Shown here piece by piece: positions 3,099-29,979 of a DNA stretch of 33,710 nucleotides (the first letter of the stretch is position 1; each line of letters opens with the position of its first letter). A model generated the notes under the pieces. It had not been told where the DNA came from. It was given only the letters and a program-made list of their open reading frames with translations, and made no database searches. The translations under genes and the position numbers were made by a program. The stretch comes from Paludibacteraceae bacterium (lineage in GTDB: Bacteria > Bacteroidota > Bacteroidia > Bacteroidales > Paludibacteraceae): contig JAGBZD010000062.1 in the NCBI GenBank assembly GCA_017628395.1, positions 1 through 33,710 on the forward strand, read 5' to 3'.

Positions 3099-3129
3099 TT
3101 GTGTATTTGAAAAAATAACACTACCTTTG
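3099..3129 (+). promoter_or_regulatory. Promoter of the cobalamin operon
   Basis: TTG at 3099-3101 and TAccTTTG at 3122-3129 are separated by 20 nt, matching the Bacteroidota consensus. The riboswitch begins within about 10 nt downstream, as expected for a leader transcribed from this site. Confidence 0.75.
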
Positions 3130-3131
3130 CA

Positions 3132-3280
3132 CCCGCATTCAGTCAAGGGAAGCAGGTGAGATTCCTGCACAGACCCGCTGCTGTGATTTGCAATATCGTT
3201 TGTTTCGTATCTAAGTCACTGCCTATCAGGTGGGAAGGCTAAGCAAACGAGCAATAAGTCAGAAGACCTGCTGCATGCTA
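3132..3280 (+). ncRNA. Cobalamin (AdoCbl-type) riboswitch
   Basis: The conserved B12-box elements appear in order: AAGGGAAGCAGGTGAGATTC, then CCTGCACAGACCCGCTGCTG, then CACTGCC, GGTGGGAAGG, and finally AAGTCAGAAGACCTGC near 3256. It lies between a promoter and a cobalamin-binding surface-protein operon. Known members turn expression down when cobalamin is plentiful. The 3' leader (3281-3354) holds further short hairpins, including GCTCT/AGAGC just before the first ATG, which could be the expression platform. Confidence 0.93.
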
Positions 3281-3399
3281 AGGGTATCCCCACTCGCCCA
3301 CGAGGCTCGTCGGGGACCCCGAAGTTGAACGCTCTCGAGGAATAGAGCTTAGACATGACAAGCAGTTTTCCATATGGTCGTAGATACGCAAACGCGTAT

Positions 3400-4593
3400 A
3401 TGCTTGGTAAAAGTATCAAGCATCGGTTGCTACTATGCATGATAGTATCAGTTGTTTGGCTGCTGACTTCCTGCCGTGGTGATGAGATTGTCTTCCCTGC
3501 GGAGTATGAAGTTTTGCCGATGGAATCGAGAGAATTGAGCAGTTTTGCATCCAACGAACCCATTGGCATGTACCTGCTCAATGAAGGCAATATGGGTAGC
3601 AACAAAGCCACTATCGACTACCTCGACTTCAGCAAGGGCATTTATATCCGCAATATCTACGGCGAACGCAATCCGAATGTCATCAAAGAGTTGGGCGATG
3701 TAGGAAACGACATTCAAGTGTATGGCAATCGCCTCTATGCGGTCATCAACTGCTCGCACAAAGTCGAAGTAATGGACCTGCATACCTGCCGTCGCATAGG
3801 GCAGATAGACATCCCTAATTGCCGTTACATCCGTTTTCACGGGGATAAGGCGTATATCAGTTCGTATGTAGGTCCCGTGAGCATTGACCCCAATGCCCAA
3901 CTGGGTGCTATCTTTGAAGTAGATACTGCCACACTCCGCATAACTCGCCAAGTAACAGTGGGTTACCAACCCGAAGAATTTGAGATTATTGGCAATCACC
4001 TCTATGTCGCCAACTCAGGTGGCTACCGCGCACCAGACTATGACTCCACTCTTTCGGTAGTGGACTTAACAGACTTTCGCCAAGTCAAAAAGATTCCTGT
4101 CTGTGTCAACCCTCACCGTGTACGCAAAGACCCATACAACCGTCTATGGATCACCTCTCGCGGCGATCACAAAGAGGTGTCACAGCAACTAGTATGCTTC
4201 CAGCCTTTACACCCTACACTTTACACTCTACACCATATTTCACCATCCGAAATGGTGCTCCTCGGCGATTCCATGTACTACTACGGCGCGTATTGGAATG
4301 ATGAAACAATGTCCAACCAAATCACCTACGGTGTCCTCAATATCCAATCCCCAATCTCCAATAACCCACATCCAATATCCAATACCCAATCCCTCATCAC
4401 CGATGGAACCGAGCAAAACATCAAGATTCCGTACGGCATTCAAGTCAACCCCTATAACGGCGATATATATATTACAGATGCAAAAAACTATGTTTCAAGC
4501 GGTCAGCTACATTGCTACTCGCGCGATGGCAAACGCAAATGGTCTGTGCGCACGGGTGATATCCCTGCTCATATGTGCTTTGTCTATCGTTAG
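3400..4593 (+). CDS. btuG: BtuG-like cobalamin-binding surface lipoprotein (beta-propeller)
   Basis: The frame is open from 3355, but starting at 3400 gives a proper lipoprotein signal peptide (KSIKHR n-region, hydrophobic core, LLTS before Cys25). The mature part has YncE/DUF5074-type propeller repeats: GNDIQVYGNRLYAVINCSHK, FHGDKAYISSYVGP, EEFEIIGNHLYVANSGGY, then NRLWITSRGDHK and PYNGDIYITDA. Bacteroides BtuG proteins of this type bind cobalamin with very high affinity and cap the BtuB transporter. The riboswitch directly upstream supports the same role here. Two period-7 repeat arrays lie within the gene (4206-4233 and 4342-4390) and encode Leu/His/Thr and Ser/Pro/Ile/Asn-rich loops. The gene overlaps the next one by 68 nt. 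Confidence 0.85.
   Translation: MLGKSIKHRLLLCMIVSVVWLLTSCRGDEIVFPAEYEVLPMESRELSSFASNEPIGMYLLNEGNMGSNKATIDYLDFSKGIYIRNIYGERNPNVIKELGDVGNDIQVYGNRLYAVINCSHKVEVMDLHTCRRIGQIDIPNCRYIRFHGDKAYISSYVGPVSIDPNAQLGAIFEVDTATLRITRQVTVGYQPEEFEIIGNHLYVANSGGYRAPDYDSTLSVVDLTDFRQVKKIPVCVNPHRVRKDPYNRLWITSRGDHKEVSQQLVCFQPLHPTLYTLHHISPSEMVLLGDSMYYYGAYWNDETMSNQITYGVLNIQSPISNNPHPISNTQSLITDGTEQNIKIPYGIQVNPYNGDIYITDAKNYVSSGQLHCYSRDGKRKWSVRTGDIPAHMCFVYR
4206..4233 (+). repeat. Period-7 repeat array inside btuG-like gene (TCTACAC type)
   Basis: Four consecutive heptamers are TTTACAC, CCTACAC, TTTACAC and TCTACAC. They encode part of a loop (PTLYTLHH) between two propeller strands. The frame stays open because three units make seven codons and no stop is created. 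Confidence 0.75.
4342..4390 (+). repeat. Period-7 repeat array inside btuG-like gene (NNCCAAT type)
   Basis: Seven consecutive 7-nt units are ATCCAAT, CCCCAAT, CTCCAAT, AACCCAC, ATCCAAT, ATCCAAT and ACCCAAT. Forty-nine bases of strict heptad periodicity encode a Ser/Pro/Ile/Asn-rich loop of the propeller protein. Confidence 0.85.
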
Positions 4594-5782
4594 TTGTGAG
4601 CAACCCGAAATACCTATGGTTGGACTTGGTATAGATGACACCTATGCCATCGAGCGCATGCGTACCCTTGTTCTCCATCCTGAGTATGAGGGCGATTCCT
4701 ACGAGTGGCGTCTCATCTCCTCGCCTTTAGCCAGCGGGGTCCCCGAAAAATCTGCCGATTTTTGGGGTGCTCTATCGCCTGATACCCTCATCTCCTCTAA
4801 TCGCGACCTCATCTTCTGTCCAAAGGACACTGGCACATACTTCTTTCGATTGAACATTATCGACCAACAAAACCCTGTTACTCACCAATTCAAGGTAATA
4901 GTTTGGGAAGAACAAGTTGCCTATTCCCCATATATTTCTAAAGTGCTGGAGTACCATCCTGCCCCTGGTCAGTTTATCAATACTATGCCACAGTATGAGG
5001 AGGGTGATACCTATGCCACCATGCTGCAAAAAGTCGAAGAATCCATTGTAGGCACCAACCGCACACTTATCTCGCTTGGCGCATGGGGTGGATATGTCAC
5101 TTTCGCTTTCGACCATTCCGTAGTCAACTCTCCGAAGCTGGCTGACTTCCTCATCGAAGGCAACTCTTTCTACGCCTCTGCTACCAGCAAAGGTGGCAGC
5201 AGCGAACCAGGCATTGTAACGGTTAGCATCGACATCAATCAGAACGGTCTGCCTGACGACCCATTCTACCAACTCGCTGGTAGTGAGTACGCTAACCCCA
5301 ACACTCTACACCATTATTCCCTCACCTACCATCGTTCCCCCGCCGATCACACACCACAACCCGATAAGCAAAACTCCCTGACCGACACTACCTATATCCA
5401 TTGGACAGACAATCAAAACCAAACGGGTTATCTCCATAAAAACACCTTCCACACGCAGGAGTATTTCCCTCAGTGGCTTGCGGATTCCGCGCTCACTTTT
5501 ACTGGCACTCGCCTGCCTGATAATGCCTATGACCCCAACGGGAAAGGCGCATACTGGATACAACAACCCTTTGAGTACGGCTATGCCGACTGCCATCCTA
5601 ATGATAGCATCGCTCGCTGTTCGTTTGATATTGATTGGGCAGTTACGGACGAGGGCAAGCCAATCTATTTGCCCTGTGTGGACTTCGTGCGCGTTTATAC
5701 GGGTGTCTTCCAACAATGTGGTTGGACAGGCGAAATCTCCACCGAAATATCTCATGCTCGTGACTTACATATAACAGAATAA
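4526..5782 (+). CDS. PKD-like surface lipoprotein of the cobalamin operon
   Basis: The reading frame extends upstream to 4298, but ATG 4526 gives a compact lipoprotein signal (ANANGLCARV, a hydrophobic core, then SIVS before Cys24). The start lies 68 nt inside the preceding gene, and earlier ATGs at 4478 and 4490 are possible. A PKD-like segment follows (about residues 40-125, including DTGTYFFRLNI). A larger domain then contains SLGAWGGYVTFAFDHSVVN, FYASATSKGGSSEPGIVTVS, DINQNGLPDDPFYQLAGSEY and a C-terminal CVDFVRVYTGV. I recall this protein type as a regular neighbour of BtuB/BtuG genes in Bacteroidales. A role in surface capture of cobalamin is inferred from context. A 35-nt palindromic repeat is embedded in frame at 4736-4770. 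Confidence 0.75.
   Translation: MANANGLCARVISLLICALSIVSCEQPEIPMVGLGIDDTYAIERMRTLVLHPEYEGDSYEWRLISSPLASGVPEKSADFWGALSPDTLISSNRDLIFCPKDTGTYFFRLNIIDQQNPVTHQFKVIVWEEQVAYSPYISKVLEYHPAPGQFINTMPQYEEGDTYATMLQKVEESIVGTNRTLISLGAWGGYVTFAFDHSVVNSPKLADFLIEGNSFYASATSKGGSSEPGIVTVSIDINQNGLPDDPFYQLAGSEYANPNTLHHYSLTYHRSPADHTPQPDKQNSLTDTTYIHWTDNQNQTGYLHKNTFHTQEYFPQWLADSALTFTGTRLPDNAYDPNGKGAYWIQQPFEYGYADCHPNDSIARCSFDIDWAVTDEGKPIYLPCVDFVRVYTGVFQQCGWTGEISTEISHARDLHITE
4736..4770 (+). repeat. Palindromic element, copy 1 (inside a CDS)
   Basis: The element reads GGGGTCCCCGAAAAATC, loop TGCC, GATTTTTGGGGTGC, folding as a stem with one bulged G. It is in frame within the PKD-like lipoprotein and encodes about GVPEKSADFWG. 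Heptad-like sequences of the CTCGCCT/TTAGCCA and CTATCGCC type flank it on both sides. Related copies are at 28387 and 29675. Confidence 0.85.
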
Positions 5783-27146: not shown

Positions 27147-28304
27147 CTACCCAAACAGATTCTTAAAGAAATTCTTCTTATCGCTCGCTCCAGGGCGCAC
27201 ATTCTCGCTCTTTTGCAGTTGCTCTATCATCTTCTTCTCTTCCTTGTTGAGTGCCTCTGGAATATACACACCTACATTGATCAGCATATCGCCTGTACCG
27301 TACTGACGCGCATATTGGTCAATCATTGGCAGTCCTTTGCCGCGCATGCGTAGCACTTTGCCTGGCTGCGTACCCGGACTGATAGTAATCTTCGCCTCGC
27401 CTTGCAAGGTAGGTATCTGCACTTGACCACCCAAGATAGCTGTAGGCATATCCAGCAGCAGGTTATACACCAAGTCGCTTCCATCACGCAAGAAATCCTT
27501 ATGCTCCTCTTCCTCAATCAGCACCAGCAAATCGCCATTCACGCCACCATGTGGAGCTGCATTACCTTTGCCATGCACTGGAATCTGCATGCCACCAGCT
27601 ACACCCGCTGGGATATGAATCTCAATGATCTCCTCCTCGCGCACTACGCCATTACCTTGACAATGTGTACACTTATTCTTGATAATCTTGCCCTCGCCAT
27701 GGCAGTTCGGACACTCATTCTGCACCTGCATCATGCCAAAGATACTGCGTTGCGCACTCACTACGCGACCTGTACCATGACAAGTTGAACAAGTCTCCAC
27801 CTGACCGTCCGCACTACCCGAACCGTTGCAATGTGAGCAGTTCACGAGTTTCTTCACCTTGATCTTCTTGTCCACGCCTGTGGCTATTTCCTCTAAGGTA
27901 ACGCGCACACGCACACGCAAATCGCTACCGCGACGCACTCTCTGACCGCCGCCACGATTGCCACCGCCAAAGAAACTGGAGAATCCTCCGCCGCCCATGC
28001 CCCATGATTCGAAGAGGTCACCAAACTGCGAGAAAATATCTTCCATGTTCATTCCGCCGCCTCCGAAGCCTGCACCACCCATGCCAGCATGACCAAACTG
28101 GTCATAGCGTTGGCGTTTCTGTGGGTCAGACAACACTTCGTATGCCTCCGCGGCCTCTTTGAATTTCTCCTCAGCCGCTTTGTCACCAGGGTTCTTGTCA
28201 GGGTGATATTGCACCGCTTTCTTGCGGTACGCCTTTTTTATCTCATCTGCCGTCGCGGTCTTCGCCACGCCCAGCACCTCGTAATAATCTCTTTTCTCTG
28301 CCAT
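27147..28304 (-). CDS. dnaJ: Chaperone protein DnaJ
   Basis: This 385-residue Hsp40 co-chaperone stimulates DnaK ATPase and delivers unfolded clients. The J-domain is at 1-70 with HPD at 34-36, followed by a Gly/Phe-rich region ([21 protein letters not shown]). Four zinc-binding repeats appear ([32 protein letters not shown]), then the substrate-binding C-terminal domains ([29 protein letters not shown]). Length is standard. It lies downstream of grpE across a 225-nt gap containing palindromic element copy 2. Confidence 0.97.
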
Positions 28305-28370
28305 AATTATATTTTATTTTCTCCTTGCCCTTTGGGCAGAAATCCCAACTATCTAAACTATTTTCCTCAA

Positions 28371-28435
28371 GCGCGGCAGGAAGTGCGGGGTCCCCGAAAA
28401 AGCTTGCTTTTTGGGGTGCTATTTGATTGCCGCGC
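28371..28435. repeat. Long inverted repeat enclosing the palindromic element before dnaJ
   Basis: GCGCGGCA (28371-28378) and TGCCGCGC (28428-28435) are perfect inverted repeats bracketing palindromic element copy 2. Together they could fold into a long hairpin in the grpE-dnaJ intergenic transcript. Confidence 0.7.
28387..28419 (+). repeat. Palindromic element, copy 2 (between grpE and dnaJ)
   Basis: It reads GGGGTCCCCGAAAAAGC, loop TT, GCTTTTTGGGGTGC. Compared with copies 1 and 3, the inner pairs change from ATC/GAT to AGC/GCT, so base pairing is preserved. This is the intergenic copy. Confidence 0.85.
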
Positions 28436-28529
28436 AATGTTGTTTATGTTGTCTTCATTATTAACAAATACTCTTTGTCTTTAGTTTGGATTGTTTAGAT
28501 TTCGCGAGCTTTGCGAGCAGGAGGTTTCT

Positions 28530-29206: not shown

Positions 29207-29979
29207 TAGAGAATATTCATAATTTCAGATAATGTCTTCACTAAGTATGTAGCAGATTGCTCTTCTGGGAGTGGGTCTTTGTTCTTTCTAATCCAAATCT
29301 GGTCAATGCCCGCATTGATAGCCCCCTGAATATCCGAACTCCATGAGTCGCCTATCATCACCACCTCTTCGGCTTGCAAGCCATTCATACGCAACGCCTC
29401 CTCGAAAATACGCGGATTGGGTTTCTGACAACCGACCTCCTCACTCAATACGATATGCGCAAAGCAGTCGCGCAGTCCACTCTTGTCGAACTTCTCGTAT
29501 TGCACTTCCACAAAGCCATTAGTGACAACAGTCAACGGATATTTCTTCGCCAAATAACGCACCAGTTCCTCTGCCCCCTCCAACAGCGAGAAACGCGCAG
29601 TGGTCATATTCAGGAAGTCTTCGCTTAACTGCTCAGCGAGAGCAGCAACTTCTTGCATCTCGCCTTTAACCTGCGGGGTCCCCGAAAAATCTGTTGATTT
29701 TTGGGGTGCCCTTAACCTTTCGCCTACCCTACTTCCATGCATCAACGGATAGAAGAAGCGGTCAAAACTCAGATATTCTTTGGTCACAAGGTCCTTGCCG
29801 TATTTGTCCCAAAGTTCGATATTATGGGGTTTATAGAGCAAGAAGAACTCCTCAAACGAAGCAAAATACTCGCTGAGATTATATTTCTCATACATATCTT
29901 GAAGCGCCAGTTTTGCTGCCCCAAGAAAATCCCCTATCGTATCATCCCAGTCAATAAAGACGGCTTTATATTGCTTCAT
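29206..29979 (-). CDS. HAD superfamily phosphatase, YjjG-like
   Basis: ATG 29979 gives MKQYKAVFIDWDDTIGDFLG, with nucleophile Asp10 and Asp12 in motif I; the frame continues upstream into ruvB. Motif II is TVVTNGF, motif III lies in GCQKPNPRIFEEAL and motif IV is GDSWSSDIQGAINAG. About 257 residues. YjjG-type enzymes dephosphorylate nucleoside monophosphates, including damaged ones. The cap region contains an unusual segment (RVGERLRAPQKSTDFSGTPQ) produced by heptad repeats plus palindromic element copy 3. It starts 1 nt after the ruvB stop codon. Confidence 0.88.
   Translation of the reverse strand: MKQYKAVFIDWDDTIGDFLGAAKLALQDMYEKYNLSEYFASFEEFFLLYKPHNIELWDKYGKDLVTKEYLSFDRFFYPLMHGSRVGERLRAPQKSTDFSGTPQVKGEMQEVAALAEQLSEDFLNMTTARFSLLEGAEELVRYLAKKYPLTVVTNGFVEVQYEKFDKSGLRDCFAHIVLSEEVGCQKPNPRIFEEALRMNGLQAEEVVMIGDSWSSDIQGAINAGIDQIWIRKNKDPLPEEQSATYLVKTLSEIMNIL
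29658..29724. repeat. Heptad array interrupted by the palindromic element
   Basis: On the plus strand TCTCGCC and TTTAACC (29658-29671) are followed by 39 nt holding palindromic copy 3, and then CTTAACC and TTTCGCC (29711-29724). The interrupting 39 nt equals 13 codons, so the phosphatase frame is preserved. The simplest reading is insertion of the palindrome into a pre-existing heptad array. Confidence 0.75.
29675..29709 (-). repeat. Palindromic element, copy 3 (inside a CDS)
   Basis: The plus strand reads GGGGTCCCCGAAAAATC, loop TGTT, GATTTTTGGGGTGC, differing from copy 1 at only two loop bases. It is translated on the minus strand within the HAD phosphatase (about APQKSTDFSGTP). It is thus read in the opposite orientation to copy 1. 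Confidence 0.85.

Follow-up and report, generated by a model that had tools for sequence, protein, structure and literature searches.

A family of short hairpins dispersed in Paludibacteraceae genomes, with in-frame copies in protein genes, resembles the Rickettsia palindromic elements in behaviour

Rickettsia and Wolbachia have been reported to contain coding palindromes, as has one archaeon, and REPs within genes are on record for some other bacteria (PMC2996958, PMC3733652). The Rickettsia palindromic elements (RPEs), which occur in Wolbachia as well, are portrayed in the accounts cited here as a palindromic family with both intergenic and in-frame intragenic copies in conserved hosts, with orthologues that carry elements of different groups at neighbouring positions and with copies in structured RNA genes (PMC2229807, PMC3767692, PMC10969869), those of tmRNA and RNase P RNA being named in one of them (PMC2229807). 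An ATGAC motif is given for RPE-4/6/7 (PMC3767692). REPs of the GTAG and CGTC classes are described as dispersed hairpins of 20-40 nt, some of them intragenic; RPE-4 and RPE-6 are assigned by the same account to the CGTC class, whose repeats are presented as lacking a dedicated transposase (PMC3733652). Palindromic inserts in protein genes are also reported for Methanocaldococcus jannaschii (PMC2996958), palindromic intergenic candidate structured RNAs for the Bacteroidetes of the HMP2 human-microbiome data (PMC8040213), and short GC-rich mobile hairpins, the GC clusters, for yeast mtDNA, where one common type as described contains GGGGTCCCCG (PMC4478555). No description of coding palindromes in Bacteroidota was found in the open-licence literature.

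The window, that is the whole stretch of 33,710 nt analysed here, is the entire contig C51 of a Paludibacteraceae genome of 2.41 Mb in 129 contigs that is 81% complete. A first-pass annotation had reported three hairpins in it, and these are exact matches at 4736-4770, 28387-28419 and 29675-29709, all in the + orientation and of the form GGGGTCCCCG...GGGGTGC. The search pattern GGGGTCCCCGAAAAAN8TTTTTGGGG (at most 3 mismatches) has 3 matches in the window, as compared with a mean of 0.00 and a largest value of 0 in 100 dinucleotide-preserving shuffles. The features concerned are the following.

3123..3289, + strand: cobalamin riboswitch (Rfam RF00174, 81 bits), abutting the degenerate copy
3288..3320, - strand: degenerate fourth copy, GGGGTCCCCGACGAGCCTCGTGGGCGAGTGGGG, adjoining the cobalamin riboswitch
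4526..5779, + strand: host ORF of coding copy 1, lipoprotein-like from its SC motif
4734..4770, + strand: coding copy 1 (GC plus core; pattern span 4736-4770, an exact pattern match), read in sense as (S)GVPEKSADFWGA in the lipoprotein-like ORF
27147..28304, - strand: dnaJ, an ORF named from its protein reading, downstream of the intergenic copy
28364..28442, + strand: composite enclosing the intergenic copy, with outer arms GCGCGGCA...TGCCGCGC taken from the fold
28387..28419, + strand: intergenic copy in the grpE-dnaJ spacer, with AAAAAGC/GCTTTTT as its inner stem
29209..29979, - strand: HAD-superfamily hydrolase (Pfam HAD_2/Hydrolase), host of coding copy 2
29673..29709, + strand: coding copy 2 (GC plus core; pattern span 29675-29709), read in antisense as APQKSTDFSGTP in the HAD hydrolase gene

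Coding copy 1 is read on the + strand, as GVPEKSADFWGA, and coding copy 2 on the - strand, in the HAD gene, as APQKSTDFSGTP; the KS(A/T)DF core pointed out in the first annotation is common to both because the element is a palindrome and not through protein homology. The inner stem of the intergenic copy is altered as had been claimed; the lipoprotein-like ORF has no Pfam match at 1e-5. Two features were seen in addition, the degenerate copy at 3288-3320 (-) and the outer arms around the 28387 copy, which recur around other copies in the genome of the window. A transcription terminator reading of the window copies was ruled out, the hairpins having no following T-run. Tandem 7-nt repeats resembling CCAATAT/CCAATCC can be read from the sequence at about 4335-4400, inside overlapping ORFs.

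That further copies should exist in the genome was a prediction that held. The pattern with at most 3 mismatches has 17 occurrences in the whole genome of the window and GGGGTCCCCG has 26, with none for the reversed control of either, and the strict form, GGGGTCCCCGN{6,30}GGGGTGC, is found at 16 places in this genome and at 103 places in 17 of 200 genomes (own included; reversed control 0). All 17 carriers, whose assemblies span 1.3-2.9 Mb, belong to the genus of the window, of which 121 genomes were searched, and the strict form was found in 0 of 79 genomes of other genera. Copies occur one at a time, with both orientations represented, and lie between genes, within protein genes or, as in two genomes, within a riboswitch. 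A longer repeat whose core ends in GGGGAGA is present in six copies in the genome of the window (L014, L015, L016, L017, L035, L004), three of them within ~120 nt of a contig end; when aligned it looks like a composite of repeats.

The anatomy of the element was derived from 110 copies in 16 of the 17 genomes, collected with a net slightly wider than the strict form, copies with identical 30-nt flanks being counted once and the two places in G077 left out. The fixed ends are GC-GGGGTCCCC-G ... GGGGTGC, or equally CGGGGTCCCC-G...GGGGTGC, and the core measures 31-43 nt, mostly 33-36 nt (about 36). The GGGGTGC end is present in 99 of the 110 copies, and in these 99 positions -2 and -1 are G and C in 93-98%. 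The inner stem is variable in sequence and mostly paired: in 68 distinct cores a mean of 5.28 of six inner stem positions is paired, one G after CCCC being left as a bulge in the count, as against a mean of 3.70 of six with permuted 3' arms (maximum 4.10 in 2000 permutations), and all six positions are paired in 47 of the 68. Stems such as ATAACG/CGTTAT, ACGAAC/GTTCGT and AACAAT/ATTGTT are examples, and poorly pairing types, e.g. CAAGCA/CGCAGT, also exist. Folding as single-stranded DNA yields the bulged hairpin in 5/5 sequences (z -2.0 to -4.6). The inverted sequence at the very ends of the core, checked as for MITE-type terminal repeats, is GC only, and no Rfam match to the element reached gathering level in the window with 12 loci or in 7 further loci. 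An average of 5.30 of the six frames of the core is open, compared with 5.13 in a palindrome-keeping control and 4.56 when all letters are permuted; in view of the palindrome-keeping value no selection for open frames is claimed.

More than half of the copies (58/110, and 57 of the 99 with the GGGGTGC end) lie in a frame that stays open for 220 codons or more, a criterion under which some ORFs may be spurious or upstream extensions of genes. The proportion varies among genomes, from 13/14 in G099 and 11/14 in G014 to 0/8 in G039 and 2/25 in the genome of the window, where L005 is doubtful and the lipoprotein copy, severed at a locus edge, is additional to the two; the two window copies are the certain coding copies of this genome. 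Of the 57 ORF copies, 35 are antisense and 22 sense. Host naming covered 18 of the host ORFs of the relatives, and gave by NCBIfam and Pfam ValS, LigA, GltX, ArgS, RimO, PyrF, MutS2, RsmE, AroA and the dihydroorotate dehydrogenase electron-transfer subunit (AroA and the last being named below the equivalog cut-off), and by Pfam a GATase_7 protein, an ABC_tran protein, DXP synthase, PriA, the carbamoyl-phosphate synthase small chain, a CN hydrolase and an MBOAT protein. The predicted insert peptides include APQKSADFSGTP in ValS and GVPEKSADFWGA in GltX. The locus L266 was considered as a gene truncated by the core and was rejected, the region being a spacer.

Empty and filled sites were compared at 14 positions, among them sites in ValS, LigA, GltX, ArgS, RimO, PyrF, MutS2 and AroA, by aligning the orthologues of eight or nine genomes each; because the sites were picked among the long-ORF copies (at least 220 codons), their in-frame status is partly selected for. 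The core is present in 21 of the 120 orthologue rows and absent from 99. The length between fixed residues increases from 30 to 72 in PyrF (+42) and from 42 to 84 in the GATase_7 protein (+42), and by 39 in AroA (33 to 72), GltX (33 to 72), the first ValS site (60 to 99) and RimO (45 to 84, as compared with G000). In PyrF, AroA, GltX and the GATase_7 protein the core lies within conserved sequence and the empty relatives align without gaps. The cores at the clean sites are 33, 35 or 36 nt long, yet the gains are 39 or 42 nt, as expected if only in-frame outcomes persist, with a contribution from the choice of ORF copies. In MutS2, LigA, PyrK and others the gained segment exceeds the core and takes in flanking repeats, so that the mobile unit may be larger than the core.

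For the window itself, orthologues within the genus mostly do not carry the insert residues, in keeping with the first-pass annotation; its further suggestion of a clean in-frame gain holds for the HAD gene, where G054 has an empty site and is 39 nt shorter, and fails for the lipoprotein. The HAD insert is present in 3/15 aligned rows, own included (3/11 at the nucleotide level), with G000, G099 and G025 recorded as having it and the other 12/15 rows without it. In the one comparison outside the genus, that with solved HAD structures, the insert is absent: the match to the best-matching structure, PDB 3qnm, ends at its residue 81 and resumes at 86 while the query passes from 80 to 110, and since the matched stretches are thus 4 residues apart in 3qnm and 29 in the window HAD, the insert sits in a linker. 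The lipoprotein insert is found in 1/11 aligned rows, own only, and four relatives have different in-frame material at that place, for which reason the gain there is not clean. Orthologues of dnaJ were located in 11/11 genomes, and the core is in the grpE-dnaJ spacer of 0/10 relatives; the spacer (window 28305-28529) has a length of 225 nt, three relatives (G061, G025, G062) have 4 nt there, and the remaining seven have 30-182 nt. The relatives fill this spacer differently (L448-L457, L459).

The presence patterns of several inserts conflict with the site tree. The GATase_7 insert, in G014, G054 and G099 and not in G000, is one such misfit, and no donor for it was singled out from local identities. 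Copies have probably spread between species also by recombination of host genes, as judged from pyrF: G014 and G038 share 86% identity over the pyrF region that bears the insert, and 71% over the concatenated sites. The pyrF region of G014 is also 88-90% identical to those of G000, G099 and G054 over ~0.9 kb, a general conservation of pyrF that weakens the argument for transfer.

The surroundings of the coding copies are themselves repetitive, copies often lying next to an array of a 7-nt repeat (TCGCCTT-like) or inside one. At least two TCGCC occur within 35 nt of 25/57 ORF copies, while of 2547 positions drawn at random from these loci 1.1% have them. Degenerate 7-nt arrays (TCGCCTT, TCGCCTC, ATCGCCT) can be seen beside coding cores at window 4718-4733 and 29658-29672 and in many other flanks. 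Alleles free of the core also have 7-nt arrays (HAD in G054, RimO and ValS in G000, LigA in G000 and G099, ArgS in G054, RsmE in G014), and array first, core second is the simplest order, with loss of the core from arrays as another possible course. Short flanking repeats, such as AGTGC on both sides in the GATase_7 gene of G014 and GTAAT/GTTAT in PyrF, suggest target duplication. The putative duplications at some sites are ~3-6 nt, imperfect and of unequal length, and therefore do not prove transposition. Other recurring in-frame inserts, e.g. SLENASLQDGASAYSLE, PLNNASQPLNNATQ, QLTIDSEQLTAEG and SDLQPQGRSTGAADLQG, were noted at the same loops, in ABC-F (G000/G099/G058), PyrK (G099/G039), ValS (G025/G058/G099) and the lipoprotein (G039), and additional repeat families thus seem to enter genes in these genomes.

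Insertion has also affected a structured RNA. In G062 and G061 a core lies within the cobalamin riboswitch (L194 1333-1535 - and L303 1326-1535 -, respectively), and Rfam spans the whole aptamer across the inserted core with 73.5 and 72.0 bits (gathering 31.5). Beside the riboswitch in both genomes, ~0.2 kb from the inserted core, is a degenerate copy of the window type whose stem differs by few bases from the riboswitch-inserted stem; with so similar a copy nearby, the inserted one may be a local duplicate.

A dispersed family with a covarying stem, with empty and filled sites, with exact gains of 39 or 42 nt at the cleanest sites and with in-frame positions in housekeeping genes is thus present in these genomes. 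It is best explained, with a probability of roughly 0.85, as a family of ultrashort, non-autonomous mobile hairpins with a core of ~36 nt, whose ends are fixed and whose inner stem is free as long as it pairs. Mobilisation would be in trans, by a factor that reads the fixed ends and the hairpin shape. The copies seen within genes add a multiple of three bases, and the core, stop-free in most frames, would yield on translation a peptide 11-15 residues long (about 13 or 14) in a variable loop. Such a peptide is presumably tolerated and near-neutral, and insertions out of frame would be removed by selection.

The hairpins may extend beyond this genus. An exact scan of the named genomes (257 Gb) with the A/T-stem version gave, among the matches listed, 80 loci, of which 23 are from Bacteroidota, 46 from Clostridia and similar organisms, 6 from Pullulanibacillus, 3 from Nitrospirae/Nitrospirota and one each from Desulfarculus and Saccharibacteria; as ~8 chance matches are expected in 257 Gb at equal base frequencies, single hits mean little. 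Many of the Clostridia copies among the matches listed end in a GGGGAGAGGAG-like tail and are without a long ORF. In Pullulanibacillus pueri, hairpins of the form GGGGTCCCCGAAAAG stand in tandem with a 42-nt period (L073; also L074, L076, L169). It is a tentative proposal, and rather to be doubted than believed at present, that a mobilising system not yet described, distinct both from Y1 transposases and from classical IS, acts on GGGGTCCCCG-hairpins across phyla. Such a system would need only ~36 nt, that is the fixed ends and any paired stem, and the hairpins of Clostridia, Bacteroidales and others, many with a 3' tail of another kind, GGGGAGAGGAG, would be substrates of the same system. If this were true, the system would in Paludibacteraceae keep supplying essential proteins with in-frame insertions in their loops.

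The nature of the mobilising factor admits other explanations. The hairpins could be REP-like sequences moved by a RAYT, a Y1 tyrosine transposase perhaps present in some genomes only, for they are like REPs, as these are characterized in the cited accounts, in size and dispersal, in the bulged base of the hairpin and in the constant sequence on its 5' side (PMC6006769, PMC3733652). The genome of G008, a minor carrier in which the strict form occurs once, has a hairpin GGGGTCCCCG...GGGGTGT (core-like, at about 90-130 of L319) ~0.15 kb before a Y1 gene that scores 25.5 bits, above the cut-off, and this single case speaks for a RAYT origin. However, no GTAG/GGAG or CGTC tag is present in the fixed ends, and PF01797 is above cut-off in 0/11 main carriers, among them G014 (98% complete, 13 strict copies) and G099 (94%), in a scan of assemblies that are incomplete (81% for the genome of the window). 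Matches above cut-off were obtained in 3/23 genomes of the genus (G113, G008 and G109) and in 5/20 genomes from the wider pattern search, and G025 has one match below cut-off. The motif occurs at 2/20 Y1 loci, L319, where the match is above cut-off, and L321, where the motif is 1.4 kb from the below-cut-off G025 match. A RAYT must on this evidence be considered unlikely.

Copying through RNA and a reverse transcriptase is to be judged improbable as well. RVT_1 is found in 7/12 carriers and 1/12 non-carriers of the same genus (L461-L468), a comparison that is not independent because the chosen carriers are mostly close relatives, and RNA-mediated copying is considered in the cited account of the yeast mitochondrial GC clusters, which are similar GC-rich hairpins (PMC4478555). 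Against this, carriers G014 (98% complete), G054, G039, G066 and G047 have no RVT_1 match.

Hairpin bypass elements are known in some yeast mitochondria. Were the cores here likewise left untranslated and skipped by the ribosome, short hairpin elements within genes would be accounted for, but the cores at the 14 compared sites are stop-free and in frame, which would be needless under bypass (though the sites were chosen by ORF), and of the 42 copies that end in GGGGTGC but lie in no long ORF, none was seen clearly to break the frame of a gene; such skipping is thus very hard to credit. That no mobile element is involved, the copies being hypervariable low-complexity loops made alike by convergence, agrees with the several sites that are loops with other in-frame material in relatives, but is already contradicted by the clean empty sites in PyrF, AroA, GltX and the GATase_7 protein and by the recurrence of the fixed ends in intergenic DNA and a riboswitch, and has almost no chance of being correct.

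Taken as mobile hairpins, the copies share with the RPEs a dispersed palindromic repeat family and in-frame insertion in conserved protein genes that have element-free orthologues. The resemblance to Rickettsia palindromic elements in behaviour proposed in the first annotation is sustained by the in-frame housekeeping inserts, by the different inserts at the same loops and by the insertion in a structured RNA, and is supported as an analogy; it would be a likeness of kind, with no claim of descent. RPEs are ~100-150 nt with a long stem-loop and terminal inverted repeats, whereas the core here is 31-43 nt, although composites such as 28364-28442 are longer. The ends here are fixed and the inner stem covaries freely, unlike in RPEs, and the ATGAC motif is absent from the fixed ends and present in some variable stems. 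The hosts of RPEs are obligate intracellular Alphaproteobacteria, those of the present family gut Bacteroidota (ruminant according to matching records).

Other described hairpins differ in other ways. REPs have a GT[AG]G tetranucleotide 5' of the hairpin, whereas the fixed 5' end here is GCGGGGTCCCCG and the tag is absent; the CGTC tag of CGTC REPs is likewise absent from the fixed ends. REPs are mostly intergenic, whereas in several genomes the copies here are mostly in ORFs, as in the G099 and G014 counts given above. The coding palindromes of M. jannaschii are archaeal, and their likeness to the hairpins here is one of description. The HMP2 palindromes named in the cited account are 80-132 nt as against ~36 nt here and are set apart by description, with overlap possible. 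The yeast GC clusters are mitochondrial with AG target sites, and no common origin with the hairpins here is claimed.

The behaviour of the RPEs is now met with in gut Bacteroidota, in a much shorter unit and in many related species, so that empty and filled sites can be read directly. The mode of insertion, the recognition of hairpin shape as opposed to sequence, and the neutrality or usefulness of the added peptides become testable, and caution is called for with short in-frame indels in proteins from metagenomes, since they may be mobile DNA. By their behaviour the hairpins may be placed among the protein-coding palindromic elements, in which comparison the RPEs share their behaviour but not their size, and the REPs their size but not their tag.
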